A DNA stretch of 32,510 nt from an uncultured bacterium (GTDB taxonomy: Bacteria; Verrucomicrobiota; Kiritimatiellia; CAIKKV01; CAIJXV01): the NCBI GenBank assembly GCA_903824675.1, contig CAIJXV010000094.1:1-32510 (forward strand). The letters run 5' to 3'. Within the stretch, counting starts at the first letter, position 1. Every line of letters begins with the position of its first letter. Made by a program: the position numbers and the translations under genes. The notes below the pieces were generated by a model. It ran no database searches. It had not been told where the DNA came from and was given only the letters and a program-made list of their open reading frames with translations. Shown here piece by piece: positions 3,963-28,558 of this stretch.

Positions 3963-4025
3963 TTTGTTGCCAATAATTGCCGCATTGTTTGATAATTGTT
4001 TGACATTCGGGCCGAATTCTACAAT
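3963..4025. promoter_or_regulatory. ATTGTTTGA direct repeats and possible integrase promoter
   Basis: ATTGTTTGA occurs at 3985-3993 and 3995-4003, about one helical turn apart, with a looser relative (TTGTGTTTG) some 25 bp before. Repeats between the attachment core and the integrase gene could be arm-type recombinase sites or an operator. TTGACA at 4000-4005 and TACAAT at 4020-4025 resemble promoter boxes, but their spacing is only 14 bp. TTGTTT (3996-4001) gives 18 bp with a poorer -35. Confidence 0.35.
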
Positions 4026-4166
4026 GATTCGCGCATGGGGTTTAGCAAGTGCGCAGGGCGTTGCGGAAGTTGGCGTTTGGCTGTTCATGTCAGAATTTCT
4101 AACACCCGCCCCCTGCCCTTGTCAACCGGTTCTGTGTTGATACAAAACCTGAGCGGGAGGGTCGTC

Positions 4167-5882
4167 ATGCCTCTTGAAATGCGAAAAACAAGTCAGTGGT
4201 GGTACGGGCGCTACAACGTGGGTGGAAAGGTTCATTGCGTGAACCTTTGGGTTCGGATTGAGGGAAAGCGTCCGGACTCCATTACTCAAGATGGAAACGC
4301 GGAATATCAAGTGTCGAAGGGAAAGGCGCAGGGAAAGTTCGAGTCGATGGTCAAGCAGGCGCAGGAGAAGCGTCAGTCGGAAGAGTACGTCCAGAAACTG
4401 CACGAGATTCGCACGGGGCGACGGATCGATTCGATCCCCCTGGGTGATTTCTCGGCTGAATGGGACAAGGCTGGACGAAAACGGAGCGGATCCCCTCGCT
4501 ATGTCGCACAGGCACATTCTCTGTTCGATCGCTTTGTGGGGTTCGTGCAGAAGGGATACAAGGACGCAAAAACCCTGGGGGATGTGACCGCGGCTATGGC
4601 GGAAGCTTTCATGGGTGGTGAGCGGGCGCGCGGGGTGAGCGGGCGAACGTTCAACGCGGCGCTTATATTGCTGCGGTCAGCCTTCAAGGTTCTCGCACAG
4701 AAGGCCAACCTCGCCCGTAATCCGTTCGCCGGCATCATGACGGCCGACGAGGATACGACCCACCGCAAGCCTTTCACACAAGATGAATTACTGGCGGTCC
4801 TAAAGGCAACGGAGGCGGACCCTTTCATCCGGCCGGTGGTCGTCACCGGGGTGTGTACGGCGATGCGGCGGGGCGATTGTTGCCTGTTGCGTTGGGCTGA
4901 TGTGGACCTCAAGGAACGTTTCGTGCGGGTCAAGACGGCGAAAACCGGAGAGACCGTCGAAATCCCCATGTTCCCGATACTCTGCCAGGAGATACAGAAG
5001 CATGGCACACCGGGAGCTGAGTTTGTCTTCCCGGAACAGGCGAAAATGTACCTGAAGAATGCTCACGGCGTGACTTACCGGGTAAAGCGCGTGCTTGAAG
5101 CCGCCGGGTTCTTCGATGTGGACGAGGAGGATGAATCAGACAAGAAAGCCGAAGTTGTCGAGGATCCGCGTCCCCTACTCCCGGCGGATGAACTCCTTAC
5201 TCGTGGGTTGAAGTTCCTGGCCGAAGTGCCTGAAGGCGAGATAGAGACCACGAAACGCGAGCGGATGACGGCGGCCTTCAAGGCGTATGTGGGCGGGGTT
5301 TGCTTGCCTGAAATCGCCGCGAATATGGGGGTGAGCAAGTCGACCCTTTCGTTAGACCTCCACGAGATCGAAAAACGAACCGGGCTGAGGGTGCTACGGT
5401 CAACTGGGATGAAACGGCCGCCAAAGAGTTTGGGCGAAGTCAGTGCCGCACGTAAAAAGGGACTGCGACGGGCGTCAGTCCGCGATTTTCACAGTTTTCG
5501 TGTGACGTGGATCACCCTCGCACTGGCCGCCGGAGTGCCCATGGAGTTGGTCACGCGGGTGACCGGACACAAGACCGTGGACGTGGTTTTGAAGCACTAT
5601 TTCCGGCCGGGACGGGAAGATTTCCGGCACGCGATCGAGAGCGCCATGCCGAAGTTGCTCATGGAAGGCGGCGGCGCGGTCGAAGCAGTGGACAAAGGGC
5701 CGGGCGAGACGTTGGACGAGGCGCTGAAGGCCTTGGAGGCCATGACGGAGAAGACCCCTTCGACAAACTCAGGGCGGGCATGGAAGAAGGAACTGGCAGA
5801 AGTGGCGGCGTTGATCCGGCAGGCGAAGGAATGGGTTGATGTGCGGGTCGTGCGGGAGGTCAGAGAAGAGGTCAAAGGTTGA
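4167..5882 (+). CDS. Tyrosine recombinase/integrase with an inserted HTH segment
   Basis: A 571-aa site-specific recombinase of the phage integrase family that should integrate and excise the element at the tRNA-Arg site. The ATG at 4167 follows GGGAGG at 4155-4160; the frame is open further upstream, but that part overlaps the attachment region. Catalytic residues: Arg in TAMRRGDCC (about 234), His-x-x-Arg in FHSFRVTW (about 441-444), His in VTGHKTVD (about 467) and the Tyr nucleophile in LKHYF (about 478). Arg and His-x-x-Arg are about 207 residues apart, roughly twice the usual distance. The extra part holds an acidic stretch and a helix-turn-helix-like segment, CLPEIAANMGVSKSTLSLDL (about 380-400). 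The C-terminal tail (residues 480-571) is charged and includes a short repeat insertion at 5755-5780. Confidence 0.9.
   Translation: MPLEMRKTSQWWYGRYNVGGKVHCVNLWVRIEGKRPDSITQDGNAEYQVSKGKAQGKFESMVKQAQEKRQSEEYVQKLHEIRTGRRIDSIPLGDFSAEWDKAGRKRSGSPRYVAQAHSLFDRFVGFVQKGYKDAKTLGDVTAAMAEAFMGGERARGVSGRTFNAALILLRSAFKVLAQKANLARNPFAGIMTADEDTTHRKPFTQDELLAVLKATEADPFIRPVVVTGVCTAMRRGDCCLLRWADVDLKERFVRVKTAKTGETVEIPMFPILCQEIQKHGTPGAEFVFPEQAKMYLKNAHGVTYRVKRVLEAAGFFDVDEEDESDKKAEVVEDPRPLLPADELLTRGLKFLAEVPEGEIETTKRERMTAAFKAYVGGVCLPEIAANMGVSKSTLSLDLHEIEKRTGLRVLRSTGMKRPPKSLGEVSAARKKGLRRASVRDFHSFRVTWITLALAAGVPMELVTRVTGHKTVDVVLKHYFRPGREDFRHAIESAMPKLLMEGGGAVEAVDKGPGETLDEALKALEAMTEKTPSTNSGRAWKKELAEVAALIRQAKEWVDVRVVREVREEVKG
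5755..5780. repeat. CCCTTCGAC...CTCAGGGC repeat, copy 1 (inside the integrase gene)
   Basis: The sequence CCCTTCGACAAACTCAGGGC is followed by GGGC. The arms CCCT and AGGG, and partly GA/TC, make it an imperfect palindrome. It lies in the integrase tail and keeps the frame. Related copies are at 26007 and 27305. Confidence 0.6.
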
Positions 5883-6377: not shown

Positions 6378-6779
6378 TCACGTTTGTTGCTCCCGGTCTC
6401 TTCCCGTGAGCATGTATTCCAGCGTATCGCATGCGCGAGCCAGTGTAACAAGGTACAGCATAAACTCGTCAGGCGTGAGGCATGGTTTAGGTACGTTGGC
6501 CTCGCCTATCAGTCTGCCGCGGTCGTCGATGTGCAGATGATAGAGTCTGGCTCCGGAGTTCTGACGCCATGCCCAGACCGCTGAAGGTCCATCGAGCGCA
6601 TCAAGAACAGATGCTCCCGCAACGAGGCTTTGCAGCACATAGTGGCCAGCGGCTGCTGACACCGTAACACGGTGGCCTCGGCCGTTTCCGAGACGAACGA
6701 TCACACTTGACCCTTCAACTTGAAGAGCCTCGCCCCGGATCAACTTGGTCCACTCAGGTTGGTTCTTTGTTCTCATCAT
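6378..6779 (-). CDS. Hypothetical protein, last gene of the PLD-helicase operon
   Basis: A 133-aa soluble protein with no family I recognise. The first part looks beta-rich (GSSVIVRLGNGRGHRVTVSA) and the end helical (TPDEFMLYLVTLARACDTLEYML). There is no signal peptide or membrane segment. The gene overlaps the end of the helicase gene by 26 bp and has no clear ribosome-binding site of its own, so translation is probably coupled and the product made together with the helicase. Two adjacent ATG codons (6777-6779 and 6774-6776) could start it. No obvious terminator follows. It could be a small accessory or regulatory subunit. Confidence 0.65.
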   Translation of the reverse strand: MMRTKNQPEWTKLIRGEALQVEGSSVIVRLGNGRGHRVTVSAAAGHYVLQSLVAGASVLDALDGPSAVWAWRQNSGARLYHLHIDDRGRLIGEANVPKPCLTPDEFMLYLVTLARACDTLEYMLTGRDREQQT

Positions 6780-9700
6780 CTATTGACTGTTTGAAAGTAT
6801 CGATCGTTGCGTCGCGGCCTGCGAACAGTTGCATTTCGAGTCGGTCGGCGTCGTCGGTAACGCGTTTCAGGGTTTCGGCAACGCGCGACACGTCGCACGT
6901 TGGATCACCGAGAATCACGTCATCTTCGACTGCCAGGTTGAAGGTGGAGTCTTCCCTCTGTGGCAACAACACCATCCGGGCTAAACGGACACGCGGGCGT
7001 TCCACGGACGACAACGTCATGTCGTTGGGATCAACGAGGCCGACGGGACTGGAAACATGGACAAGCAGATGGCCTTGGAACGTTTCCAGCGATAGGCAAA
7101 AGGGCTGGCGACGTTCACCCATCGTTCGAGTTCCGAAGATACGGGTCGTCGTGCCGCCTTCTTCCCAGACCAGTGAGCCTTTGCCGTTCAATGCAGTGGC
7201 GAGGTCGCGGAAACGTTGCACAGCCAATCGGGACTGATCCGGGGTGGTTTCCAGCGTTGCTATATCTCCTTTCAAAAGTTCCGGGTCGACCGGAAAAGCG
7301 CTCTTGAGGATATCTGTGATCTGTGGCACGGCACTGAGGCCAAGCAGAATCTCTCGATCAACGTTCAGTTTCTTCTCTCCACTCACTGGAGCACACAGGC
7401 TTTCGTGCATGAGCCTGATGAATGTGTTCATTCGTGTAAGAACCCGTTGTACCTGTAAGACCTCGATGGTGTCGCGCAAATGCGGGAAATAGACTTGAAG
7501 TTTGTCGGTTCCCGCCGGTTCGGTTGTGAGCATGGTCAAGCGGCGTTCGCTTTGCGACCAGACGCGATCTATACGGCCGATGCGTTGTTCCATGGATGAG
7601 GGCGTCCACGAAATGCCGTAGTGATGGACTGCGGAGCAGAAGGTGTGCAAATCCTCGCCCTCCTGGAGCAAATCCGTTGTGAACAGGACAAGCGGATAGG
7701 CAGGCATCCGGAATTGCCGAACTAGCGTTTGGTTGATCTGTCCGGACATGCCGCCGACTGGTTGTTGCTGGCGGAGAAGCGCGCCGAAGGCGCGCGCCGT
7801 TTCGGCAAGGGAACGCGTGCGGGCACCGGGATCGTTGACATCCAGAATGAGATCGAAGCACTCGGATATTTGAGACAATTCGTCGAAGGCTCCCCAGCAG
7901 CGTTCCTTCAATGGGGTATCCATTTGGCGAGTGAGTAGGTCGAGATAAGCTTCAATGCGCTGTTCCTCCGCCTCGCGGCCAGCCGTGTCCGAGTCCTCCT
8001 GTGCGCGAAGGTCCAGGCTGCCAATACGCTGAATGGTCAGAACGTATAGGTCAATGAATGCATGCCCCAGTCTAGCCGCAGTCGCAAGGAGCCTCGCCCG
8101 AAGTTCTGACTCTCGACAGGACTGGTGACAGTCTTCCGTCTGGGTCTCTGGCCAAAGTCTTGTGCGCAGAGCCGGTCGCTGACGGATTTGGGTGAAGAAC
8201 GTTTTCAACTCCAGCCAATCACCAATTTCCGGTGCCTCTGTGGCGTGATTTGTGCGAATATAATCGGAGAACCATTCATGCCACAGTTCAGCCGCCTGGG
8301 CGTGCAGAGGGCCATCGATTTCCTTTATCCACTCAACGGCGGCGGCTTGAACCGCCTCAAAACGGTCGCTTCTGGTGAGTTTGGCTAACGTGGGCAGGAA
8401 TCGGCATGACCGGCGGCGCACCTCGGATCGAACCGTTTCGACGTCACGACCGGAATACTCGGCCAGTCTGGTCACCACTGCGCCGGGGGCGCAACCCAGA
8501 AGGGCGGCGACATGGTTTTCCTCAAAGAAGGTTGCATACTCGGCACCTCGTTGGATGAATCGCCGCTGAATGTTTGCCCCGCTCAGGATGCCGCGCGGCC
8601 CGTCGCCCCGGAAGAACCATGCGAAGAATGTGTCGAGACCTCCCCTGTCTTCAATGGCGGCGGCTGCATTTGGTGCCGCAATATCCTGTGGTGTTTCGAC
8701 CCCTGATTGCCGCTCACGTGCTTCGATCTTCAGTGTTCGATATTGGGCAACCACTTTCCGGAAGCGATCCAATGTGGAGGGTGGCAGTTCTTGCTCCATG
8801 CGAGCCAAGAGCCAGGCATCATACTGGTCATCCAGTTTGCGCTTGAGTTCCTTGACCGAGGCAACGCGGCGCACGAAAACCAGGGCCTTTTCACCTGTTT
8901 TCCACGCGGATGACAAACGGGCCACGACGGCATCCATCTTCGGGTGCGGCAGTTCCTCGCCGTTGAACGTCCTGCGGTATGAGCGCGAAAGGCGGTTCAC
9001 GTCGGCTACATCGATGCCTTCCCGCTCGGATGGGTCTTCCGTCTGTTCGCCGTCGTCGAAGTTCCCGTTGTCATCCTCTGTTCTCTTCACTCCGGCCGTC
9101 TCCAAGAAACTCTCGAAGGAGGCGAGCATTCCCATCTGGAAAGAGCGGTTAAACCGCTCGCTGCCAAGAATCTCACTGACCTTCTTCTGGACCAGGGCGA
9201 CGACAAGTTTCTGTCTGTCGCCAAGGACGCGCAACGGGTCGTCGTGCTGGTCTACCCCGCCACCGCGCCATTCACGCCGGTAAATGTTCTTCGTATACTC
9301 GGCCCCACCAATGCGAATCGATGTCACGCGGCGTATCAGGATGGTCCTAGCGAGTTCCCTAAGCACATCCTCATCTTCGGTATCGCGCAAGTCGCGAAGC
9401 GTGCCGCCGTGACCCAGAATATCCAGCTGGTTCCACAGGTGACGGTAGTTCTCCTCGATGGGTGTTGCTGACAGAAACAGAACCCGTTTGGCCTTCGGGC
9501 GGTATCCTGGGAAGAGGCTATGGTTCACGCTCTGCCCTGGGTGGCCGAAGGCCAGCGCCATGACCCGGTTACGCGCGGCGACACCGGCGGAAAATCCATG
9601 TTTCAGATTGTGCCCCTCATCGACGATGACGAGGTCGAATTCAGGTAATCCGCAGCAAACGGCACGAGCGAAGTTATCCTTGAACGCCTGTTTTGATCGA

Positions 9701-10239
9701 AGGTCGAACACCTCGTCGGGAAGCCAGGGAAGGCAGCGCCGCAGGGCGTCCCGGAGCATCCGGGCGCTTGCGGGATCCACCTCGTCGTCCCCGCGAACCG
9801 GGAGACTGAAGCTGGACAACCGGGCGAAGAAATCACGGTTCGCATCGAGTGAGGTCTCCCGGATCAATGCGATGAGGTTCTCGCACAGAACGAGCGGGCG
9901 CGCCGGTTCACCTTCAATTCCCTTCACGCGGAGGTCCGCGAACCTAACGTTGTGCGCCACGAAGTTGCGAAGTTCCTTCATCCATTTCCTTTGGATGTTC
10001 TCGCGGGGTGCGATGACGAGCACGCGGAAGTCGGGGTCATAATGTCTGAATAGAGCGAGCGCCCCGAGTGCGACGTATGTCTTGCCCATGCCCACTTCGT
10101 CTGCGAGGTATGCGACATTGTGGCGGCAGAGGATGTTGTGTATGGCGACAGCGCCCTCAAGTTGTTCCTGAGCGCGTTGCGCACTCTTGATGCGTTTGCC
10201 AAAGTCGAGAAGTTGTTCCGCTGCGCGGAGATCAATCAT
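6754..10239 (-). CDS. SNF2/HepA-like helicase with a large insertion in the second RecA lobe
   Basis: A superfamily 2 ATPase of about 1161 residues that should translocate on DNA or remodel nucleoprotein. Motifs, numbered from the GTG at 10245: Walker A in ADEVGMGKT (48-56), Walker B in VDEGHN (208-213), motif III SATPIEE (259-265), a lobe-2 strand KALVFVRR (453-460), motif V LLQEGEDLH (859-867) and motif VI QRIGRIDR (887-894). Motif IV and motif V are therefore about 390 residues apart, far more than usual, so the second lobe carries a large, partly helical insertion. The ATG at 10239 is preferred over GTG 10245 because GGAGG lies 6 bases before it. The gene overlaps the PLD gene upstream and the 133-aa gene downstream. 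The C-terminal 250 residues have no recognised domain. Nearest known relatives by layout are RapA/HepA-type and DISARM/Dpd-type helicases, but identity is not established. Confidence 0.85.
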   Translation of the reverse strand: MIDLRAAEQLLDFGKRIKSAQRAQEQLEGAVAIHNILCRHNVAYLADEVGMGKTYVALGALALFRHYDPDFRVLVIAPRENIQRKWMKELRNFVAHNVRFADLRVKGIEGEPARPLVLCENLIALIRETSLDANRDFFARLSSFSLPVRGDDEVDPASARMLRDALRRCLPWLPDEVFDLRSKQAFKDNFARAVCCGLPEFDLVIVDEGHNLKHGFSAGVAARNRVMALAFGHPGQSVNHSLFPGYRPKAKRVLFLSATPIEENYRHLWNQLDILGHGGTLRDLRDTEDEDVLRELARTILIRRVTSIRIGGAEYTKNIYRREWRGGGVDQHDDPLRVLGDRQKLVVALVQKKVSEILGSERFNRSFQMGMLASFESFLETAGVKRTEDDNGNFDDGEQTEDPSEREGIDVADVNRLSRSYRRTFNGEELPHPKMDAVVARLSSAWKTGEKALVFVRRVASVKELKRKLDDQYDAWLLARMEQELPPSTLDRFRKVVAQYRTLKIEARERQSGVETPQDIAAPNAAAAIEDRGGLDTFFAWFFRGDGPRGILSGANIQRRFIQRGAEYATFFEENHVAALLGCAPGAVVTRLAEYSGRDVETVRSEVRRRSCRFLPTLAKLTRSDRFEAVQAAAVEWIKEIDGPLHAQAAELWHEWFSDYIRTNHATEAPEIGDWLELKTFFTQIRQRPALRTRLWPETQTEDCHQSCRESELRARLLATAARLGHAFIDLYVLTIQRIGSLDLRAQEDSDTAGREAEEQRIEAYLDLLTRQMDTPLKERCWGAFDELSQISECFDLILDVNDPGARTRSLAETARAFGALLRQQQPVGGMSGQINQTLVRQFRMPAYPLVLFTTDLLQEGEDLHTFCSAVHHYGISWTPSSMEQRIGRIDRVWSQSERRLTMLTTEPAGTDKLQVYFPHLRDTIEVLQVQRVLTRMNTFIRLMHESLCAPVSGEKKLNVDREILLGLSAVPQITDILKSAFPVDPELLKGDIATLETTPDQSRLAVQRFRDLATALNGKGSLVWEEGGTTTRIFGTRTMGERRQPFCLSLETFQGHLLVHVSSPVGLVDPNDMTLSSVERPRVRLARMVLLPQREDSTFNLAVEDDVILGDPTCDVSRVAETLKRVTDDADRLEMQLFAGRDATIDTFKQSIDDENKEPT

Positions 10240-12280
10240 TGGCACCCTCCGCGGGCAAAGCCTTCTTTAGAAACCAGCCTTCGAACCAGTCCAAGAAGGG
10301 TTTCATGTCTTCCTGGGTCTTCGTCGCGAGCGCCTCCTGCATTCTTGCAGCGGTTTCGCCGCACAGGCGCTCGATTTCCTTAGCGTCAGCGGGATGATTT
10401 TGCCAGAACTCGGCGTAATCCTTCCTCACCTGTTGACATACTTGCTTGGCGCAAAGTGCCAGGACATAGCGTTCGACATCATCCTGTTTGGACTCCGTGC
10501 CAGCGACACGTGTCAGGAGACTCCCCAGCGAATCGTACTTCTTGCCGAACAGCAGGTAGACGGCCTCCAGCTCCCGGTTCTCTTCGATGGCCTTTTTCAC
10601 TGCTCGCTCCAGGCAGCCGAAAGCGTGAAAGAAGCCGGCAAATCGGTCGAAGAGCGTATCTTGTTCGGCCTGGAGCCTCTGTGTTGTTACCAGATCGAGA
10701 CCTTGTCCGGTCTTGATGAGTTCCGTGGCCCGCAGTTCCAGAAACGCGCTGCGTTGCTCCGACGTGAGAAGCGACCAGTAACGTAGAATGTCTTGAACCG
10801 AAAGGTCGGCGAGAAGAGAAGGTTTGTGTGTCATCCCCTCTTCCTGGACCAGCACGGTCACGGGATCTTTTCCGTCCTCGCGCACAGATATGAAGGACGT
10901 CCGCCTGAGTACCGTTTGGAGCATTTCTGAAAAACCGGCGTCCAAGGATGTCCATTGGCTGGATGGCAAGGGACCAATCTTGCCCAGTTGCTGGCCTTGC
11001 GCGTCCAACTCCAGGCAAGGGGATGCCGGCCGATTCTCGGGTTCATTCCAGAAAGCGGAGGCTTCGCCAGTGTCCCATCGGTAGCGTAAAACGAGATGCG
11101 TGACGGTCTCTTTAGTTGTTCCCTCAGCCTCGTCATTTGGTTTGAAGTCCAGGGGCACCTTTGTTTGGGCCGAGAGCCAGAATTCGCAGGCGCCTGGGGG
11201 AGCCAGTTTGTCGACGATGAATCCGGTTTCCAGGTTGCCGCCTTTCTGGTGGGCCGCCGTGGTGAGATTTGGCGACCCGATGAAGAACAGTTCCCATTTC
11301 GGCTTCTGACGGAAGAAACGGTAGACCTTGGCGTGAACCATGCGGTCGCCGGCGTCTTCGGTCCGGCCAAGCCGCAGAAGATCCCTTGGGAGACTTCCCC
11401 ACGAAACATTCGGCAATGCGCGAACAGACTGGTAAAGCTCCTTGCGACAAGTGGCATCACCATTGGGTGCGCGGGGAAGGAAGACCCTGACTTCCCTGGG
11501 GCGAAAGCGATGGATGAGTTCTTCCAACGGTCGGCACGTATCGGCATCGTCGAGGTACGGGGAGATGACTTCAAGATATGCATCGCGGATGTATTGGCCG
11601 GCCACTTCTTCGAGGAAATCGGGCACAGATGTCTTCCCGTCATAGAAATGGGTATGTAGTTGTTGGCCCGATGATTTCTGTGCGCGTTGTTCTGTTTGCC
11701 TAAGAAAGTCGGAAATGCTCTGTAGGGCTGGATGGGCAGTTTCCGATGCCGTCCTTCGCTTGAGCCCGGCTAGAAATCCCAACACGTCATCCCGAAGTCG
11801 AGTCTTCGTCCCGATTTCTATTTCTTCGACGTGGCAGACCTCTACATTCCTCCACCAGCCCGCCTCTGTTAGGTTGGCGGACATGCAGGCGACCAGCAAT
11901 GTTTGTTCGCGGTTGCCATCTGCGTCGGGTTCGGCCGATTCCGTGAGTAGGAATACATTCTTTGGGTGGAAGTAACCCGTGGGGTGACGGACCGGAACGC
12001 GTTGGATCGGCAGTTTGGCCGATGTTTCGCCGATCATCAGGCCGTTCTCGGCGTAGTAGACAGCCATTTGAGCGCCAATGCGGTTCAGTACACCCTCCAT
12101 CTGGACCAGCCGGATCGCGGAAGCATGGCTCAGCGGAATATCCAGAAAGATGGGCAGCACCTCTTGTTCAAAGAACGCAGGATCGAAACGGAATGTAAGG
12201 AAGACGGCGCTGATAAGACGCTTGCCCTGCATAAGTTCTTGAAAGTGATCGGACAGCACAGCACGGGGAAGTTCGCTCAT
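10232..12280 (-). CDS. Phospholipase D-superfamily protein with two HKD-like motifs
   Basis: A 682-aa protein with two PLD-type half-sites, numbered from the ATG at 12280: GYFHPKNVFL (His105, Lys107) with MSANLTEAGWW (Asn136), and MVHAKVYRFF (His316, Lys318) with GSPNLTTAAH (Asn338). Both have His-x-Lys and the Ser-x-Asn element; the Asp of the classical His-x-Lys-x4-Asp is not in place, as in many PLD-family nucleases. The two halves probably form one active site that cuts nucleic acid. The last 300 residues are helical and charged with no recognised domain. The ATG at 12280 is chosen because it overlaps the stop of the preceding gene (ATGA) and because the 84 codons upstream lie antiparallel to nothing but the neighbour's coding sequence. 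Pairing with a SNF2 helicase suggests a helicase-nuclease machine. Confidence 0.85.
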   Translation of the reverse strand: MSELPRAVLSDHFQELMQGKRLISAVFLTFRFDPAFFEQEVLPIFLDIPLSHASAIRLVQMEGVLNRIGAQMAVYYAENGLMIGETSAKLPIQRVPVRHPTGYFHPKNVFLLTESAEPDADGNREQTLLVACMSANLTEAGWWRNVEVCHVEEIEIGTKTRLRDDVLGFLAGLKRRTASETAHPALQSISDFLRQTEQRAQKSSGQQLHTHFYDGKTSVPDFLEEVAGQYIRDAYLEVISPYLDDADTCRPLEELIHRFRPREVRVFLPRAPNGDATCRKELYQSVRALPNVSWGSLPRDLLRLGRTEDAGDRMVHAKVYRFFRQKPKWELFFIGSPNLTTAAHQKGGNLETGFIVDKLAPPGACEFWLSAQTKVPLDFKPNDEAEGTTKETVTHLVLRYRWDTGEASAFWNEPENRPASPCLELDAQGQQLGKIGPLPSSQWTSLDAGFSEMLQTVLRRTSFISVREDGKDPVTVLVQEEGMTHKPSLLADLSVQDILRYWSLLTSEQRSAFLELRATELIKTGQGLDLVTTQRLQAEQDTLFDRFAGFFHAFGCLERAVKKAIEENRELEAVYLLFGKKYDSLGSLLTRVAGTESKQDDVERYVLALCAKQVCQQVRKDYAEFWQNHPADAKEIERLCGETAARMQEALATKTQEDMKPFLDWFEGWFLKKALPAEGAND

Positions 12281-13584
12281 GGAGTACCTACCTGAAGTTG
12301 CGCGGTAACTGTACGGAGCGAATCGATGAAATAGGAGTGACGCCACAGATTCGGCAATTCCGTCCGGCGCGGCAAGACGGCCGACTCGTCGCGGACCCGA
12401 ACCTGGAGTCTGTTCTTTTCCTGAGTGACCCAAGGTGCGCCGCCTCTGGAGAGCATGACCTCCTGGTTCTGACGGATGAGCAAGTTGACAAGGTCCGCGT
12501 ATTTGCCGGCAGCGCATGCCTTCGCCATGCACAACCAGCGTTCGCCCTCACCATCGTCCCGACCGTTATTCCCGAACTCCTGGGTGAGTGCGGATAGCGC
12601 TTCGACTTCGATGGTGTTTACCATTGCCCCCCATTGCTTTTCCAGGATGGCCGCGAGTTGATCGACTGTGATGTCATCCTGTGCGAGCACAAAATCGAAG
12701 AGCGCGGCGACCGGCGCCAAGAGCGATTCAGCGGCCCGGATGCGTTCGAGTTGGACGGCCAGCGGTTGCCCGGATTCCCCACGCACGCGCGCCTCTTTCG
12801 CGAAAGCGGTCATCATTTTGGGTGTGATGGGATCCATCTGTTTGGTGCGCTCGAACAATTCAGCAAGGAGATTTTGACGTCCGTTTGTGGAATCGGCTGG
12901 GCCACCGGTCAAGAGGTGTTCACGGTAGAATGACCTCTCTTCTTGCCGCAGTTGTTTGTCTAGGATTCTGGCCACAGCCCGCACAATCTGGCGGTCCCGT
13001 CCTTCAATTTCGATGCGGGACGATGGCTGGCGAAGGATTTCGATTATTCTCGCGCCGTCCCCGAGTTTTTCGGCCTTCAGGATGGGCAGGCATTCTCTTT
13101 CGACATACTGCAACGCACGCGGGGTAAGTCGTGTCGGTTCACCCTCGAGCAACCCCGATGCTCGGCCAGCGACCGTGTAGAGGCCCCATAGGCCGTAGGT
13201 CTTCTGGTTGCTGAGTATCTGGCCCGCACTGTCAGCGGACAGGCGGATGTTTGTGCTTTCGCCCAGGCGCTTCTTGACCCGCTCAACCCCGCGGAATGCC
13301 CAGTCGCGATTGACGTGGCCTCGGGCGTATGCCGCGAGTTGTTCCCATTTGAGAAATACGTCGAGTTCGCTCTCGGCGCCTCCTGCTTCTGCCGCCCGGG
13401 TAGCAAAGTAGTAACCGAGCAGCAGTGTGGTGAAATCTCTGACGGATGTGCTGACCGTGGTGAGATTGCCGACAACCTGCCTGCCCATCTTTGTCCAGAT
13501 TGATTGCGCCCCCAGAGGGTCACGGGAGCCCTTGACGGCGGCGCGCGTGTCAAGGTCCGTGAGAAATGGCGATTGGACCGTCAT
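12277..13584 (-). CDS. Hypothetical protein, first gene of the PLD-helicase operon
   Basis: A 435-aa, mostly helical soluble protein that I do not recognise. It starts MTVQSPFLTDLDTR and has a segment LSNQKTYGLWGLYTVAGRASGL around residue 130 that resembles a winged-helix element in a targeting or sensor subunit. A region of long helices follows (LARs rich in Arg/Glu) and then a compact C-terminus with LPNLWRHSYFIDSL. It has no membrane segment or signal peptide and no recognisable nuclease or methylase motif. It leads the operon and overlaps the PLD gene by ATGA. No strong ribosome-binding site precedes 13584. By position it could be a recognition or adaptor subunit; that is inference only. 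Confidence 0.75.
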   Translation of the reverse strand: MTVQSPFLTDLDTRAAVKGSRDPLGAQSIWTKMGRQVVGNLTTVSTSVRDFTTLLLGYYFATRAAEAGGAESELDVFLKWEQLAAYARGHVNRDWAFRGVERVKKRLGESTNIRLSADSAGQILSNQKTYGLWGLYTVAGRASGLLEGEPTRLTPRALQYVERECLPILKAEKLGDGARIIEILRQPSSRIEIEGRDRQIVRAVARILDKQLRQEERSFYREHLLTGGPADSTNGRQNLLAELFERTKQMDPITPKMMTAFAKEARVRGESGQPLAVQLERIRAAESLLAPVAALFDFVLAQDDITVDQLAAILEKQWGAMVNTIEVEALSALTQEFGNNGRDDGEGERWLCMAKACAAGKYADLVNLLIRQNQEVMLSRGGAPWVTQEKNRLQVRVRDESAVLPRRTELPNLWRHSYFIDSLRTVTAQLQVGTP

Positions 13585-17490: not shown

Positions 17491-18792
17491 ATGTTGATTG
17501 AATTCGAGGTCGGCAACTATTTGTCATTCAACGCGCCTGTGCGCCTGAGCATGGTGGCGGCGAACCCGATCAAGGAGTATCTGGAAGAGAACACCTTCCA
17601 GGCGGGGCGTCATCGCCTGTTAAAAAGCGCTGTGGTGTATGGCGCCAATGCCAGCGGCAAGTCCAACCTGCTGGCCGCGATGGCGTTCATGCGGACCTTC
17701 GTACTGAACTCCTCGAAAGAGATGCAGGTTGAGGAGGAAATTCGAGTGATGCCGTTCAAACTTGAAGTTTCCACCAAGGACAAACCGAGCCATTTCGAGG
17801 TTTGTTTCCTTTGGAGCGGCTTTCGCTACCGCTACGGTTTCCAAGTTGACCGCAAGAGGGTTCGGCGAGAGTGGCTTTTCCGCACGGAAAAGGTCAAGGA
17901 GGATACCCTGTTCCTGCGTGAAGATGACGGCATCGACGTGCGTGAGGGGTTTCGCGAAGGGAAGGGCCTTGAAGACAAAACCCGCGACAATGCACTCTTC
18001 CTTTCCGTGGCGGCCCAATTCAACGGGACGATTGCCGGCGATGTCGTGAAATGGTTTATCAATTTCAGGTCGCTCCATGGATTGCGCGATCAGACCTATG
18101 AGCGGTACTCGACCGAACTCCTGCAGAAGGAAGAGATGCGCCCCCTGCTGGTCGAGTTCATCCGGCGCGCGGACGTGGGAATCGAGGACTTAATCGTCAA
18201 CGAGGTGCTGATCAGGGAAGACGACTTAAAGGACGTGCCTGATGAGACCCGGCAACGCCTCATGAAACAGAGGCAGTTCAAGATAGCAACCGTCCACAAG
18301 AGTTTCCGCGACGGCGTTGAGGAAGGCATTACGCACTTGGATTTTGCTTCGGAGGAATCCGAGGGCACCAAGAAATTCTTCCGGATAGCCGGCCCGATCC
18401 TGGACTGCCTAAAGAATGGGTACATCGTGGCCGTGGATGAATTGGATGCCAAGTTGCATCCGCATTTGACCAGAGCCATTGCGCGGCTATTCAACTCGCC
18501 CGTTTCGAACCCGAAGAATGCCCAGTTGATCTTTGCCACACACGACACGAATCTGTTGCACTACGGCAATCTGCGGCGTGATCAGGTATGGTTTGTGGAG
18601 AAAACCAATCAATCGGCCTCTTCGCTGTACTCGTTGGCCGAGTTCAAGTCGGTCAGGGGGACCAAGGTTCGCAACGATGCCGCGCTTGAGAAAAACTACA
18701 TCCAAGGGCGGTTTGGCGCCATCCCCTATCTTGGAGATTTTTCAACGCTGCTGAAGGAGGCCGGCGATGGGACGCCCAGTCAAACTGAGTGA
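17491..18792 (+). CDS. rloA: RloA-like AAA ATPase (AbiLi/AAA_15 type)
   Basis: A 433-aa ABC/SMC-like ATPase of the OLD/AAA_15 group. The N-terminus MLIEFEVGNYLSFN is typical. Walker A is YGANASGKSN (50-59), Walker B lies in VAVDELDAKLHPHL (about 312-325), and the switch His is in FATHDTN. AAGGAG precedes the ATG. The gene sits between hsdS and hsdR and overlaps rloB, as 'restriction-linked' rlo genes do in Campylobacter type I loci. Related ATPase-plus-TOPRIM pairs (AbiL, PARIS AriA/AriB) trigger abortive infection; in PARIS the trigger is an anti-restriction protein. A role as a backup to the restriction system is therefore plausible but inferred. Confidence 0.9.
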   Translation: MLIEFEVGNYLSFNAPVRLSMVAANPIKEYLEENTFQAGRHRLLKSAVVYGANASGKSNLLAAMAFMRTFVLNSSKEMQVEEEIRVMPFKLEVSTKDKPSHFEVCFLWSGFRYRYGFQVDRKRVRREWLFRTEKVKEDTLFLREDDGIDVREGFREGKGLEDKTRDNALFLSVAAQFNGTIAGDVVKWFINFRSLHGLRDQTYERYSTELLQKEEMRPLLVEFIRRADVGIEDLIVNEVLIREDDLKDVPDETRQRLMKQRQFKIATVHKSFRDGVEEGITHLDFASEESEGTKKFFRIAGPILDCLKNGYIVAVDELDAKLHPHLTRAIARLFNSPVSNPKNAQLIFATHDTNLLHYGNLRRDQVWFVEKTNQSASSLYSLAEFKSVRGTKVRNDAALEKNYIQGRFGAIPYLGDFSTLLKEAGDGTPSQTE

Positions 18793-19459
18793 CCGTGGTA
18801 AAGCATGGTGCAACCATGAATCCCGAGCGATGAAACGCGCCGTGCGTATAAGTGCGGCGCGTGAACGAATCCTTATTGTCTGTGAAGGAACGAAAACAGA
18901 ACCCAACTATTTCAGGGCATTCAAGGCCTTATTGCCCAACCATGTAGTGGAACTGGACATACAAGGCGAGGGCTTCAACACATTGAGTTTGGTTGAACAG
19001 GCCCAGAAATTGCGTATGGACCGGGCATCGGGCGACTACCCTTTCGACCAGGTCTGGGTGGTATTTGACCGGGATAGTTTTGAGCCTGATAACTTCGACA
19101 ACGCCATACACAAGGCCACGACCGACAAGATCGAGTGCGCCTGGTCCAACGAGGCCTTTGAACTGTGGTACATCCTGCACTTCGAATACCGGACGACGGG
19201 GATGTCCCGTGACGAATATGAAGGTAAGCTGACTGGCTTGCTGGGCCAAGAGTACCGCAAAAACGCGACGGACATGTACCGGCAACTCGCGGCAAAGGGC
19301 AATCAGAAACAGGCCATCGCCTGGGCGCGGCGACTGCATGACGAGATTGAGGTGGCGGGCACACCCGCCTCCAGAGCCAATCCCTGCACCACGGTTTTTA
19401 AACTCGTGGAGACGCTGAATGGGTTCAAACCCGTTCAAAAAGAGGAAGGAAACACCTGA
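18767..19459 (+). CDS. rloB: RloB-like protein (TOPRIM-like, AbiLii type)
   Basis: A 230-aa partner of RloA. RILIVCEGTKTEPNYF (about 34-49) carries the conserved Glu, and VVFDRDSF (98-105) the Asp-x-Asp, which together resemble a TOPRIM nuclease site. A conserved CAWSNEAFELWYILHFEY follows, characteristic of RloB. The ATG at 18767 has AAGGAGG upstream and overlaps the end of rloA by 26 bp, so the two should be made together. The expected role is the toxic effector (probably RNA or DNA cleavage) held in check by RloA. The substrate is not known from the sequence. Confidence 0.88.
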   Translation: MGRPVKLSDRGKAWCNHESRAMKRAVRISAARERILIVCEGTKTEPNYFRAFKALLPNHVVELDIQGEGFNTLSLVEQAQKLRMDRASGDYPFDQVWVVFDRDSFEPDNFDNAIHKATTDKIECAWSNEAFELWYILHFEYRTTGMSRDEYEGKLTGLLGQEYRKNATDMYRQLAAKGNQKQAIAWARRLHDEIEVAGTPASRANPCTTVFKLVETLNGFKPVQKEEGNT

Positions 19460-23150: not shown

Positions 23151-25553
23151 ATGGCCATCCGATACGAACCGAAAGAGCATATTCAACTTATCGAGAATGC
23201 GCCGCGTGCCGAGGGAATCCTCGACCAGCGCGAAATCACCATACAGTCCTATCAGACAAGCGTGCCATTCGAGTTCGCCAAGTTGGATGCGGACTTGGAG
23301 ACGGCATGGCTTTCCCCCACTACCCGTTTGGGTGTGTTTTTTCGCAGTTCCTCATCCGAGGCAGACGGCTGTGCTGCCGTGCTCGGGTTTCAAGACCAAC
23401 TCACGGTTCGCGCCTACAATTACGACGAACGAACGCCGCTCTGGTACTCATGGAAGGACGTGGTGGTGGATACTGCGTCCATACGTTACTTCAGAGGCGT
23501 TGATGGGTTGCTGTGGTTCATCACCACGGGCGGCGGACGGCGAATCACGGAAGAGAAACTGGCGGAGTTCAACAGCACCTTCCTGGGAATCCCGCCAGCG
23601 GCCGTTACCAAGCAACTGTTCGACCTGGCAAAGTTGCGCGAACTGTGTTTCTGCCGTTTTGTAAGCCGCCTCTACATGGTGCGGTTTACGGATCCTTCCG
23701 GCAAGGAGTACCAGAGCATTGACCATGCGCTCTTCCAGAGCAGGGAATATATCGATCCCGAGACACCGCGCCTGAGGGAGGTGGGTGCCGATAATCATGT
23801 CAAAATCGAGTCCTTTGACTCGGACATAGACGTGCGATGCAGTGATCTCGCGGCACCGGTGCGGGTACGTTTTTTCATAAGAGGCCTTTCAGGCGCATTG
23901 CGGTTACGATTCCCGAGACTTGTCCTTAAGAGCGGCACACAGAAACCCGAAAAACAGGTAGAAGCCTTCTACCGAATCGTCAATGCGACAAGGGATTCGA
24001 TCCTTGACGCAAACTACTATCAGGAAAACCAGGATTCGCTGGAATTTTTGCATAATACGGACCAGGACCTATTTCCCGAGACGGTGAATCTCTCATCGTT
24101 TCGAAAGGTGTTGAACAAGCCGGAGAGGTTGGAGAAGTTCTTTGCCGGATTAAACCTGAGCGGACAGAAGAACGAATGGGCGCCGCATCTGCTGGCGGTC
24201 GACCAATTAATGATGACGGATACAGTGAGCGGGCATGTTAAAGACCTGGTGGGCTCCATGGCCACCGACAATCCGCAACTGGCGACTAAACTTCTGGATG
24301 TGTGCCGACTTGACGCAAGGTTGTCACGTCTCGGGGCGATGACAGCAGCGATCGTGTGCGCGAAACTGCATGCGGTACCCACCGAAACGCGCGCGCAGGC
24401 CGAGGGAGCGTTCCTGGCATGGGCAGTCGAGCGCGAGAAAGCTGGATGGGACGTGGATGCCGACACCGGGGAGATCGCCGTGCTGAAATGGCGAGGACGG
24501 ATGGACAGTCTGACCCTTGGGCTACGGATGAAGGTGATGGCGAACCTAATGGACCAGGTTCATGCGAGACTGACGGGGGCGGAAGGAGACGTCGGCCTGC
24601 TTTTGAACAAGTTTAACTGGTGCGTTGAGGCCGCCAAGGAGTTGCCAGCAAATCATGCGGAATGCCCAGTATCGCTACGGCTGATCATTGAGGGGAAAGT
24701 TCCGATGACTGTCGGGGATGGGAACAAGGTACTGAGGGAGCCCGTGTATGATCTGGCAGCGCTCGATGCGGAGGTGTTGAGACATTTCGGACTCGCCCTG
24801 TGGCCATTGATGACTCCGGTGCGACAGAACGGGAAGATTGTGATTGCCAATTTGGGTATTGGTACGGCCCGATCCATTCGCATTTTGCGAGCGGGCGAAC
24901 TTTTCGGCGTAAACGACACGCCCAGCGTGGATCTTGGTCCCGGCAAGGAAATCACGCTATCCGTCAAAGGCGACCCCACTGCGATTGAGATAATTTTCAC
25001 GAAGTTTGGGAAGGAACGACGCGCCACATTGCCAGTGGTTGCGGCACAAACTGCAACTGGCACCCACGGGCAACAGGCCCCTGGAACGTCTGTCGAAGCA
25101 GCGAAGTTGGACGCGATTATCGGCCAAGTTCAGGACCTGAAAGGTGTTGTGTTTCAAGCTGTGGATGAGACCGGACGGTTGAGAACCGAATCGGACAGAC
25201 GCAAGCTTGTCATCGAAGAGATGGCTGACGGGCCAGACAAATTCCTCGCTGGGATGCGTGCGCGGATTACCGGGTCTGAGAACCTGAATCTTTTCATGTC
25301 TTTGATAGAGAAAACGGTGTTGGATGGGCAGAAAGAATATCTGTCCTATACTGAAATCGGCAGACGACTGGGTGGTGTCACCAAGCAGGCAATCGGGGCG
25401 CGTGTAACGCTGTTCAAGGGAAAATACCCCGAGGTATGGGACTACGTGGATGCGGTGCGTAATCCTGAGAAGCCAGTTGATTTTTCAGAGTTGGCCCCTT
25501 CCGATCGCCGCAAACGCGGCATCGATGAATCCTACAACTACGACGCAAATTAA
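23151..25553 (+). CDS. Large protein of unknown function in the defence cargo
   Basis: An 800-aa protein I do not recognise. AGGAG lies 7 bases before the ATG. No signal peptide, membrane span, Walker motif or obvious nuclease motif is visible. The N-terminal 270 residues look beta-rich (GVFFRSSSSEADGCAAVLGF, then a Tyr/Trp-rich stretch). The middle 280-560 is helical. Residues 570-650 look like a beta-sandwich (IVIANLGIGTARSIRILRAG). A Gln/Thr-rich linker follows, then a helix DAIIGQVQDLKGVVFQAVDE. The C-terminus has an HTH-like segment YLSYTEIGRRLGGVTKQAI (about 736-754). It has its own transcription unit between two terminators. Position among defence genes suggests a defence or regulatory role; this is inference. 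Confidence 0.8.
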   Translation: MAIRYEPKEHIQLIENAPRAEGILDQREITIQSYQTSVPFEFAKLDADLETAWLSPTTRLGVFFRSSSSEADGCAAVLGFQDQLTVRAYNYDERTPLWYSWKDVVVDTASIRYFRGVDGLLWFITTGGGRRITEEKLAEFNSTFLGIPPAAVTKQLFDLAKLRELCFCRFVSRLYMVRFTDPSGKEYQSIDHALFQSREYIDPETPRLREVGADNHVKIESFDSDIDVRCSDLAAPVRVRFFIRGLSGALRLRFPRLVLKSGTQKPEKQVEAFYRIVNATRDSILDANYYQENQDSLEFLHNTDQDLFPETVNLSSFRKVLNKPERLEKFFAGLNLSGQKNEWAPHLLAVDQLMMTDTVSGHVKDLVGSMATDNPQLATKLLDVCRLDARLSRLGAMTAAIVCAKLHAVPTETRAQAEGAFLAWAVEREKAGWDVDADTGEIAVLKWRGRMDSLTLGLRMKVMANLMDQVHARLTGAEGDVGLLLNKFNWCVEAAKELPANHAECPVSLRLIIEGKVPMTVGDGNKVLREPVYDLAALDAEVLRHFGLALWPLMTPVRQNGKIVIANLGIGTARSIRILRAGELFGVNDTPSVDLGPGKEITLSVKGDPTAIEIIFTKFGKERRATLPVVAAQTATGTHGQQAPGTSVEAAKLDAIIGQVQDLKGVVFQAVDETGRLRTESDRRKLVIEEMADGPDKFLAGMRARITGSENLNLFMSLIEKTVLDGQKEYLSYTEIGRRLGGVTKQAIGARVTLFKGKYPEVWDYVDAVRNPEKPVDFSELAPSDRRKRGIDESYNYDAN

Positions 25554-25770: not shown

Positions 25771-25902
25771 ATGAAGAAAAGCAAGCGATTCGATCAGTTG
25801 ATGGCCTTGGCGCTAGATGGCGATGAGTCGGCTCCCGGTGACCTGTGGTTGGAGTTCGGCTATCGGTTCCCTTTGCAGGCGGAGGGCTCCACCCATGAGT
25901 GA
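25771..25902 (+). CDS. Small 43-aa protein before the HTH gene
   Basis: A short frame starting at ATG 25771 with GGAGG 5 bases upstream. It reads MKKSKRFDQLMALALDGDES and ends QAEGSTHE. It is acidic and helical in part, with no recognisable domain. Its stop overlaps the start of the next gene (ATGAGTGA), and it begins the replication-module transcription unit. Good ribosome-binding sites on both genes support real expression. It may be a leader protein for coupling or a small regulator; its function is unknown. Confidence 0.6.
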   Translation: MKKSKRFDQLMALALDGDESAPGDLWLEFGYRFPLQAEGSTHE

Positions 25903-26347
25903 CCTGACCGGCGAATTGTTGGCGGCGGTGGTGGCGGCGCCGGATGCGCGGAAGCGTGAGGCGTTGAAGGTGCTACGGGGGGAACTTCCACCCGCTGATG
26001 CGGAGACCCTTCGACGGTGCTCAGGGCAAGCAGAACCGTACCTGACACTCCGGGAAGTCGGACGGCGGTTGGGCGTGAGTCCCTGTTCGTTATGGCGGTG
26101 GGGCGTGCCGGGACACGAACTCGGGGGGCGTCGTCGGTTCCGGATGAGTGAGGTCGAGGCGTACCTGGCGGGTGAAGAATTCAAGCAAAGGGCCTCCAAT
26201 CTGAAAGAAGATCGGCGGGATGCCAGCCTCCTCCGCACGGAGGCTACGGCGAGCGGCCCGGCTTCGCCCGAAGCGGGCTACGCCGCGGCGACCCGGCTTG
26301 TGCCAGATCGAAAGGAGGTGAAGGCGGGGATCGGGCAAAGGGCATAG
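25895..26347 (+). CDS. Helix-turn-helix protein with a repeat-derived C-terminus
   Basis: A 150-aa protein. GGAGGG lies 8 bases before ATG 25895. The middle contains an excisionase/AlpA-type helix-turn-helix, YLTLREVGRRLGVSPCSLWR, followed by the wing LGGRRRFRMSEVEAYLAGEE (about residues 49-92). A CCCTTCGAC repeat (26007-26031) forms residues 38-46 just before the HTH. The tail from about residue 108 is encoded by palindromic GC-rich repeats (26222-26298), so the native protein probably ended near there. It may act as an excision factor or regulator of the replication genes. Confidence 0.75.
   Translation: MSDLTGELLAAVVAAPDARKREALKVLRGELPPADAETLRRCSGQAEPYLTLREVGRRLGVSPCSLWRWGVPGHELGGRRRFRMSEVEAYLAGEEFKQRASNLKEDRRDASLLRTEATASGPASPEAGYAAATRLVPDRKEVKAGIGQRA
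26007..26031. repeat. CCCTTCGAC...CTCAGGGC repeat, copy 2
   Basis: CCCTTCGACGGTGCTCAGGG followed by CAAGC. It lies inside the HTH gene and keeps the frame. It differs from copies 1 and 3 mainly in the central four bases. Confidence 0.6.
26222..26298. repeat. Palindromic GC-rich repeats in the HTH gene tail
   Basis: CCTCCGCACGGAGGCTACGG and CCGGCTTCGCCCGAAGCGGG form back-to-back hairpins. The GGCTACGGCG part recurs at 26669-26694 in non-coding DNA. They look like dispersed palindromic elements that have extended the coding frame. Confidence 0.5.
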
Positions 26348-26713: not shown

Positions 26714-27376
26714 ATGGCAATTCTGCAACAGCCGGTGGTTGGTGGAAATGTGTTCGGGGATGAGATTGGCGATGACCTGGCTCCGGCCGGGACGTTCATG
26801 GCGACGGTAATCGACATCCGCGATGAGTTCGGGGTTCAGCGTACGAAGTTCCAGAGCACGGAGACCGAGATGGTTGATCTGACGACCTTCCTGTTCGGGT
26901 TCCGTGACGCACAGGGATTCGAGCATCGCGTCGCGAGTCGGCGCATGAAAATCAGTGGGAACGAGAAGTCATCGCTCTTCGCGTTCCTGAAAAGTCTGCT
27001 CGGACGGGCTCCGACGTTTGGGTGGGATTACTGTGAACTGAGGGACGCACAGTGCCTCCTGACGGTGGAGCATATCCAGCGGCGGGATGGTACGGGTGTG
27101 TTCGCCGCGATCGCGGCGTTGAGCCCGGTGCCCCAGGGGATGGGGAATGGGCAGGTTTCAGGGGGCGGGGTTCAGGGGTCAGGAGGAAGCCCCCCACCCC
27201 GGTCCACTCTCTCGCGGGGAGAGGGAGGTCAGGGAGCGGCGGGCGGCTTGAGGCCACAGTCGGCACGGCCCGTAGGGCCTGCGCCCGTCAGGCCGGCCGC
27301 AAGGCCCTTCGACAACGCTCAGGGCAGGCCAAACGCGCCGAGTTCGGCGCCAGTAAACGATCCGATCCCGTTTTGA
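26714..27376 (+). CDS. Single-stranded-DNA-binding-like protein with a repeat-rich tail
   Basis: A 220-aa protein; GGGAG lies before the ATG. The first 140 residues look like one small beta-rich domain: LAPAGTFMATVIDIRDEFGV opens it, as in phage ssDNA-binding or DUF669-type proteins that sit beside nuclease and polymerase genes. KSSLFAFLKSLLGRAPTFGW follows. After residue 145 the protein is made of repeats: a heptanucleotide array gives GGGVQGSGGSPPP, and a CCCTTCGAC element gives RPFDNAQGRP. It ends NDPIPF, an acidic-hydrophobic tip like that of SSB proteins. Its neighbours (nuclease, polymerase, primase) support a role in replication. The ssDNA binding is inferred, not shown. Confidence 0.6.
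   Translation: MAILQQPVVGGNVFGDEIGDDLAPAGTFMATVIDIRDEFGVQRTKFQSTETEMVDLTTFLFGFRDAQGFEHRVASRRMKISGNEKSSLFAFLKSLLGRAPTFGWDYCELRDAQCLLTVEHIQRRDGTGVFAAIAALSPVPQGMGNGQVSGGGVQGSGGSPPPRSTLSRGEGGQGAAGGLRPQSARPVGPAPVRPAARPFDNAQGRPNAPSSAPVNDPIPF
27154..27188. repeat. Heptanucleotide array inside the SSB-like gene
   Basis: Units GTTTCAG, GGGGCGG, GGTTCAG, GGGTCAG and GAGGAAG run at period 7. The frame is kept and gives the peptide GVQGSG. Confidence 0.7.
27305..27330. repeat. CCCTTCGAC...CTCAGGGC repeat, copy 3
   Basis: CCCTTCGACAACGCTCAGGG followed by CAGGCC. It lies inside the SSB-like gene tail and keeps the frame. Confidence 0.6.
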
Positions 27377-27396
27377 TGGAATAGGAAGAACAACTA

Positions 27397-27437
27397 AAGG
27401 CGGTGGCGACCTGGCAACGGGTCGCCCCGCCTTGAGG
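27397..27437 (+). promoter_or_regulatory. Leader hairpin before the nuclease gene
   Basis: AAGGCGG and GGCGACC (27397-27411, one bulged T) pair fully with GGTCGCC and CCGCCTT (27420-27433) around an 8-nt loop. The ribosome-binding site GAGG (27434-27437) follows at once. There is no T-run, so it is more likely a translation-controlling or mRNA-processing hairpin than a terminator. Confidence 0.5.
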
Positions 27438-27445
27438 TAATCACA

Positions 27446-28252
27446 ATGGCAGTTTTGAGCAAGAACACGATTAAGGCGGGGCATTGGTATGCCCCAGATG
27501 GGACGCCGATGCACCGGATGCCGACGGCAGATGGTTCTGGCGAGCGGATTACGACGATTCGGGATGCGAAGCGGATGGGGCTCTTCCCCAGTGTGACAAG
27601 CATTCTGGGCATCCTGGCAAAGCCGGGTTTGGAGACCTGGAAGCTGAACCAGATGGCGCTGGCGACGCTCCGGACGCCGAAAGGAGAAGAGGAAGGCGAT
27701 GAGTACTGGTGCAACCGCGTTCGTAACGCGGCGTTTGAGCAGGTCGAGGAGGCTGCCGATCTCGGGGGCATGATCCACGGGGCGCTGGAAGCAGCGATGG
27801 CCGGGGAGGCATTCGATCCGGCGTTGGCCGTTTACGTGGATCCGGTTCTCGCGTGGAAGGGAAAGACGGGGATCGAGATTCTGGAGCGGGAGGCGCGGCT
27901 GGTGAATACGGCGAACGGGTTCGCCGGCACGGCGGACGTTCTGTTCCGGTACGGTCAGAACGGCATCGGCATCCTGGATTACAAGACGAGGAAGACCCAG
28001 CCGGGCAAACCGGTCGGGGCGTATGAGGACCAGGCGATGCAGCTCGCGGCGTATGCCGCGACCTACTGGGGCGAGGCGGAGGTCGGGCGGGTGCTGGCGG
28101 CGAATGTGTTTATCAGTACGACGGAACCGGGTCGGGTGGAGGTGGTGAAGCATGCGAATCCGGAGAGGGATTGGCAGGCGTTCAAGCTCATCGCGGCCTT
28201 CTGGCGGTACGTCAAAGGCTATGACCCCCGCGCCGCCGCGCAGGCGGCATGA
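27446..28252 (+). CDS. Cas4/RecB-like PD-(D/E)xK nuclease
   Basis: A 268-aa nuclease. The active-site series of the RecB/Cas4 group is visible: His111 in GGMIHGALE, Glu149 in EREARLV, Asp164 in GTADVLF, Asp178-Tyr-Lys180 in GILDYKTRK, and Gln196...Tyr203 in EDQAMQLAAYA. An upstream LFPSVTSILGILAKPGLETW matches the helical start of phage exonucleases of this kind. The four-cysteine iron-sulfur cluster of true Cas4 is not seen. With an SSB-like protein before it and a polymerase after it, a role in recombination or processing of replicating element DNA is likely. Confidence 0.85.
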   Translation: MAVLSKNTIKAGHWYAPDGTPMHRMPTADGSGERITTIRDAKRMGLFPSVTSILGILAKPGLETWKLNQMALATLRTPKGEEEGDEYWCNRVRNAAFEQVEEAADLGGMIHGALEAAMAGEAFDPALAVYVDPVLAWKGKTGIEILEREARLVNTANGFAGTADVLFRYGQNGIGILDYKTRKTQPGKPVGAYEDQAMQLAAYAATYWGEAEVGRVLAANVFISTTEPGRVEVVKHANPERDWQAFKLIAAFWRYVKGYDPRAAAQAA

Positions 28253-28276
28253 GGGCTATGGCATGACGTCTCAAGA

Positions 28277-28446
28277 GCGTTGCGCATTTCGTGGGCAAAG
28301 CGGTGGGGTGATCTCGCCCCATCCGCTGCGTTCTCGGGAGTGCCGCGTATACGTATACAGCGGCACCCCCGACGCCTTGCGGCTGAAACAAGCTGACCCC
28401 GCCATTTTCCCATCCCGGCAAAGCCGGGCAACGAAATGCGCAACGC
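28277..28446. repeat. 170-bp segment bounded by perfect 16-bp inverted repeats
   Basis: GCGTTGCGCATTTCGT (28277-28292) and its exact complement (28431-28446) bound a segment with three internal hairpins: GCGG-GGGG/CCCC-CCGC (about 28300-28325), GTGCCGC/GCGGCAC around GTATACGTATAC (28339-28366) and CCCGGC-AAA-GCCGGG (28415-28429). It has no coding content I can support. It could be a small non-autonomous mobile repeat or a structured origin. No target-site duplication is obvious. Confidence 0.5.
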
Positions 28447-28449
28447 GGT

Positions 28450-28544
28450 TTGCCCCATCGCGCAGACGCGATGGAAAAGACATTCCAGGACCTGCGGGGA
28501 CCGACATGCGCGTCACAGATTGCCCCATCGCGGGAACGCGATGG
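28450..28544. promoter_or_regulatory. Two identical-stem hairpins 70 bp apart before the polymerase gene
   Basis: TTGCCCCATCGCG occurs at 28450-28462 and 28520-28532. Each copy forms an 8-bp perfect hairpin CCATCGCG/CGCGATGG, with loops CAGA and GGAA, at 28455-28474 and 28525-28544. The second ends 14 bp before the polymerase start. They could be iterons, an origin element or mRNA hairpins. Confidence 0.5.
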
Positions 28545-28558
28545 ATTGGGAGTTCAAA

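Follow-up and report, generated by a model that had tools for sequence, protein, structure and literature searches.

The described systems closest to the locus reported here are PDC-M27, Azaca, DISARM and Dpd. PDC-M27 belongs to the PDC systems, the phage defence candidates of PADLOC-DB 2.0, which have been described as unvalidated (PMC12988326, PMC10855318), and our literature search for PDC-M27 and DUF6361 found no paper; as canonical PDC-M27 we used the plasmid loci of Vibrio nigripulchritudo (L007) and Rhodoferax antarcticus (L006). Azaca (ZacABC) is a validated system that combines an unknown protein, a PLD nuclease and a helicase, and DISARM (DrmD/DrmC) and Dpd (DpdE) include SNF2 helicases. 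The canonical examples come from annotated plasmids, and profiles confirmed their identity (L007 for PDC-M27, L008 for Azaca). In CglI, a restriction nuclease and an SF2 helicase work in one translocating complex that cuts on collision (PMC5737866).

A conserved four-gene operon

The window, by which we mean the whole stretch of DNA that was analysed, is an entire 32.5-kb contig of a draft genome (4.24 Mb in 124 contigs). Six-frame ORFs and their translations confirm what a sequence-only reading had described, namely four overlapping minus-strand genes, here A-B-C-D, at window positions 6378-13584:

12277..13584, minus strand: gene A, 435 aa, ATG start; distant PDC-M27A homologue
10232..12280, minus strand: gene B, 682 aa, ATG start; PLD-superfamily nuclease, distant homologue of PDC-M27B and ZacB
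11840..11968, minus strand: first PLD half-site of B (H105, K107, N136, E147), the same in all 30 sequences compared, PDC-M27B and ZacB among them
11228..11335, minus strand: second PLD half-site of B (H316, K318, G335-S336-x-N338, E351), invariant in 30 sequences; the BfiI nuclease domain aligns at H, K, N and E
6754..10245, minus strand: gene C, 1163 aa, GTG start; SNF2-type SF2 helicase/translocase with a C-terminal extension, distant PDC-M27C homologue
10078..10101, minus strand: Walker A of C, DEVGMGKT, residues 49-56, motif present in 24/24 complete homologues
7564..7587, minus strand: motif VI of C, QRIGRIDR, residues 887-894, motif present in all complete homologues
6378..6779, minus strand: gene D, 133 aa, ATG start; type III secretion chaperone/YbjN-like fold

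The overlaps are 4 nt (A/B), 14 nt (B/C) and 26 nt (C/D). The longest ORF for gene B (12532-10232, 766 aa) opens at GTG 12532, and the true start is almost certainly ATG 12280 instead (MSELP..., 682 aa), since this codon overlaps the stop of A as ATGA and homologues align from there.

When two aligned A sequences were used to scan some 85,000 species genomes, 32 loci were returned, a count that is a lower bound because the scan was built on short conserved peptides. Among these and a further locus (L002), B follows A wherever the contig continues (31/31), C then follows B in 27, and strand and order are always the same. The A-B-C(-D) order is kept in about 30 loci from at least seven phyla (Planctomycetota, Acidobacteriota, Myxococcota, Pseudomonadota, Verrucomicrobiota, Gemmatimonadota and Sumerlaeota), with junctions that are mostly short overlaps, commonly of 4 or 8 nt. 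Individual loci are interrupted: in L011 an ISL3-like transposase is inserted between A and B, in L013 B is truncated, and in L032 (4118-7992, plus strand) C lies in two overlapping ORFs of 765 and 526 aa that split it between its two RecA lobes. Conservation of order across the loci excludes a chance arrangement, and A-B-C-D is real, conserved and almost certainly a single functional unit, in line with the earlier reading from the start and stop overlaps that the four proteins are made together.

Motor, nuclease and protein A

Each of the 24 complete C sequences keeps the Walker A, DEAH/DEGH, SATP and VI motifs, and most also keep motif V, consistent with C being an SNF2-type ATPase that would translocate on double-stranded DNA. 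Protein B had been read as a double-HKD PLD protein; two half-sites are indeed present, each being more exactly H-x-K ... S-x-N ... E, and the 28 family members carry the H-K-N-E pattern. The restriction nuclease BfiI (PDB 2c1l, E 2.4e-8), which is metal-independent, can be aligned with the second half-site, although the likeness is limited to the nuclease part of BfiI and B carries two half-sites in one chain. A recognition domain was not identified in B. With two BfiI-like half-sites in a single chain B is predicted to cut DNA, probably without metal ions.

Protein A is mostly helical and confidently modelled (pLDDT 91.3, pTM 0.88), its best-conserved stretch lying near the N-terminus (KGSRDPLG...IW...GR...GNLTT). 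This core protein matches no solved structure: Foldseek searches of PDB and BFVD with the model gave nothing at E<=0.001, and a profile search of PDB sequences gave nothing significant. We propose that A is a constant third subunit whose probable role is to bind DNA or to act as a scaffold for B and C, the DNA-binding role being a guess given that A has no recognisable fold.

Relation to PDC-M27

The sequence-only reading could match the set to no named system, and this holds only in part. In single-protein profile scans (PADLOC, hmmscan), A matches PDC-M27A in two pieces (E 1.4e-20), B matches PDC-M27B over residues 11-647 (E 5.6e-14) and C matches PDC-M27C (E 6.7e-78); the match to this PADLOC candidate is distant, and D matches no PADLOC profile. 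In Pfam and NCBIfam, C yields only helicase domains and B has sub-threshold PLD/DrmC matches, while neither A nor D gives a useful hit. Comparison of family alignments with hhalign agrees with the PADLOC scans (A against PDC-M27A, P 99.4, E 3.9e-21 over about 400 columns; B against PDC-M27B, P 99.5; C against PDC-M27C, P 100). All three proteins are homologous to their PDC-M27 counterparts over most of their length and share the A-B-C order. However, the relationship is distant, with A of the window only about 20 percent identical to A of L007, and canonical C, at about 870 aa, has no C-terminal extension. In a midpoint-rooted tree with long branches, ZacC, PDC-M27C and the family of the window separate, and C of the window groups with PDC-M27C apart from ZacC. 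A distant relative in a genome of the same phylum (L052 6107-10081, plus strand) has a C of 1324 aa and matches D marginally (E 3e-5); it may stand between the family of the window and canonical PDC-M27.

We favour the reading, with a probability of roughly 0.6, that the operon is a deep-branching PDC-M27 variant enlarged by a chaperone-like domain, D, and that its four proteins form one complex that attacks invading DNA.

D is a split-off domain of C

The 133-aa protein is no independent unknown: D is the split-off C-terminal domain of C, and in 8 related loci it is fused to C. D aligns with the C-termini of fused C proteins (hhalign P 99.3, E 3.9e-20), and a profile of separate D proteins places the domain at the C-terminal end of C, or close to it, in L028, L031, L033, L036, L037, L038, L002 and L040 (E 4e-12 to 2e-34), where L002, whose 1253-aa C ends in a D-like domain, and L038 are near-copies. 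The same profile did not find the domain in canonical PDC-M27C or in ZacC, and D is a subunit absent from the catalogue entry PDC-M27. Across the 24 loci with a complete C, D is a separate gene in 15 (the window included) and fused in 8, and it was not detected in L039; on the C tree, fusion maps to a beta/gammaproteobacterial group and to one independent event in L028. In L037 (12175-16425, plus strand) the D domain is internal to C (residues 1143-1248), and the approximately 170 residues after it form an extra C-terminal domain.

The AlphaFold2 model of D (pLDDT 88) has as its top PDB matches in Foldseek class-I type III secretion chaperones and YbjN-like proteins (probability 1.00, E ~2e-4, TM 0.5-0.6). 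'TY-chaperones' of this type III secretion chaperone/YbjN fold have been predicted in other immune systems (PMC9503650). D has the fold in common with them, but it is fused to or encoded beside an SNF2 helicase and has no sequence match. From its fold and its fusion with C we suggest that D, sitting at the C-terminus of C or beside it, would be a peptide-binding module serving to assemble the complex or to restrain it.

A different role for D is possible, though we consider it unlikely: D, and perhaps A, might be a sensor in whose chaperone-like pocket a phage protein is bound, releasing the C/B motor-nuclease so that DNA is destroyed regardless of self in an abortive response. The peptide-binding fold and its prediction in other immune systems speak for this, as does the fact that D is the least conserved subunit (40 percent identity between the window and L010, compared with 52 for A, 55 for B and 59 for C), and no methylase travels with the operon. 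Moreover, the sensor helicase of Hachiman sets a nuclease free when it detects damaged DNA (PMC12278908). However, Hachiman senses DNA and not a peptide, and fast divergence of D fits a small assembly subunit too. The narrower proposal that D is itself the sensor of an invader protein, its secretion-chaperone-like pocket capturing a phage polypeptide and thereby licensing the PLD nuclease, is in our judgement more doubtful still; were it true, it would amount to peptide-triggered DNA degradation that needs no self-methylation.

Distribution and genomic neighbourhood

The operon is rare, its own genome being the only one to carry it among 346 genomes of the class, and the PDC-M27A profile matches 2/388 genomes of the phylum. 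The C gene tree does not follow phyla, and this mixing points to horizontal transfer. Searches with A of plasmids, and of viral contigs with the single A sequence, gave no match; a search of viral contigs with the family alignment found two related IMG/VR contigs. These contigs (L050 and L051) carry the operon with percent identities to the window equal to those of a Bryobacterales locus (L014) and have a serine-type integrase downstream of it; owing to an 11-nt difference, C of L051 falls into two ORFs. A record labelled 'Bacteriophage sp.' (L002, MT835507.1) holds an A-B-C operon that hardly differs from the one in Pseudomonas laurylsulfatiphila (L038) and is probably bacterial or island DNA rather than phage.

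Defence genes often lie beside the operon, and the recurrence check suggested with the sequence-only reading comes out strongly positive. In a qualitative tally of 96 profiled neighbouring ORFs from related loci these are BrxC (L011), a type III REase (L025), a ZorD/DpdE-like protein (L026) and a DruE-like protein (L020), and further neighbours are IetA, WYL regulators and GajB-like helicases. In the window itself a type I R-M operon (HsdM/S/R) is divergent to the operon at a distance of about 470 bp, and an RloA-like ATPase and RloB (AbiLi/AbiLii profiles; 17491-19459, plus strand) are embedded in it between HsdS and HsdR, which bears out the restriction and abortive-infection neighbours named earlier.

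The window also encodes a 628-aa tyrosine recombinase, a phage-type integrase that is weakly GmtZ-like (3996-5882, plus strand), and an excisionase-like HTH protein (25817-26347, plus strand). Since these flank the defence genes the stretch may be an integrative island; a search for attachment-site repeats around it gave no convincing pair. An 800-aa ORF 3' of a RadC-like gene (23151-25553, plus strand) has no match in Pfam, NCBIfam, PADLOC or PHROGs. Genes for a phage-type exonuclease (PD-(D/E)XK) and for a family A DNA polymerase, with matches in PHROGs (27446-30475, plus strand), lie in DNA whose G+C is higher (60-64 percent). Two 51-nt imperfect direct repeats at 28425-28545 contain CCATCGCG...CGCGATGG palindromes, and three 29-nt repeats of the GGGTTCAGGG type are found within 27153-29847.

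Helicase-nuclease pairs serve repair too, and with the integrase at 3996-5882 nearby the operon could be read as a function of DNA repair or mobile-element maintenance, not defence; we hold this improbable, as its distribution is patchy, rare and cross-phylum, its neighbours include defence genes, and its homologue is catalogued as a defence candidate.

Sparing of self-DNA

That the operon has no methylase of its own was rightly noted before, and across the loci a methylase is no constant companion. It had further been suggested that self-marking could be borrowed from the neighbouring type I methylase, in which case the operon would be a restriction system of the usual kind, its self-DNA protected by HsdM methylation. 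The divergent HsdM/S/R genes of the window invite such a reading, which we nevertheless regard as very improbable and reject as a general rule: a type I system lies beside the operon in just one other locus (HsdS/HsdR in L017), L040 has a weak HsdM-like ORF, and N6_Mtase is not one of the Pfam families that at least two of the 96 neighbours share. We suggest instead that self-DNA is probably spared because the complex would need a structure or trigger found in infection, and not by a cognate methyl mark.

Azaca, DISARM and Dpd

Azaca has the same three-gene layout as A-B-C, B matching ZacB over the PLD part (hhalign P 97.6) and C matching ZacC in the helicase (P 97.4, over 72 columns only). 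However, ZacA (DUF6361) is not homologous to A (hhalign P 0.2; no PADLOC ZacA match), Azaca has no D, and the helicases group apart; on these sequence comparisons Azaca is a more distant relative than PDC-M27, linked through nuclease and helicase. C is likewise related to DrmD and DpdE, and B and DrmC have the PLD nuclease superfamily in common, but profile scans of the window genes uphold the earlier statement that there is no DrmB and that the operon is neither DISARM nor Dpd, the DrmA/DrmB set, an own methylase and 7-deazaguanine genes all being absent. Least probable of all the readings is that the operon is a diverged Azaca, DISARM or Dpd itself: although B scores about as well against ZacB as against PDC-M27B in a single-sequence hmmscan (E 5.1e-14) and part of C matches ZacC, DrmD and DpdE, we rejected Azaca because A is not ZacA-like, DISARM on the missing DrmB match, a DrmC match of only E 0.005 and NCBIfam scores far under the cut-offs (DrmD 69 of 610), and Dpd on the lack of 7-deazaguanine genes among the window genes scanned and a DpdE match that is partial and under the cut-off (61 of 500).

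Proposed mechanism and implications

Judged from its genes, the operon most likely encodes an ATP-dependent, DNA-restricting defence complex. Under the favoured PDC-M27 reading the four proteins would act on invading DNA as one assembly, made up of the motor C, the nuclease B, the constant subunit A and the chaperone-like D on the tail of the motor. The closest characterised precedent for this mechanism is CglI, though it is an R-M system: similar to what we propose for B and C, its restriction nuclease and SF2 helicase act together, whereas the operon of the window has neither a cognate methylase nor a known recognition domain, and its motor is of the SNF2 type. Through these observations the catalogue entry PDC-M27 becomes a defined family, for which the subunits are listed, the conserved catalytic residues are named and an extra subunit, D, is added, and they make it possible to ask how a restriction-like nuclease can work without a methylase that travels with it.
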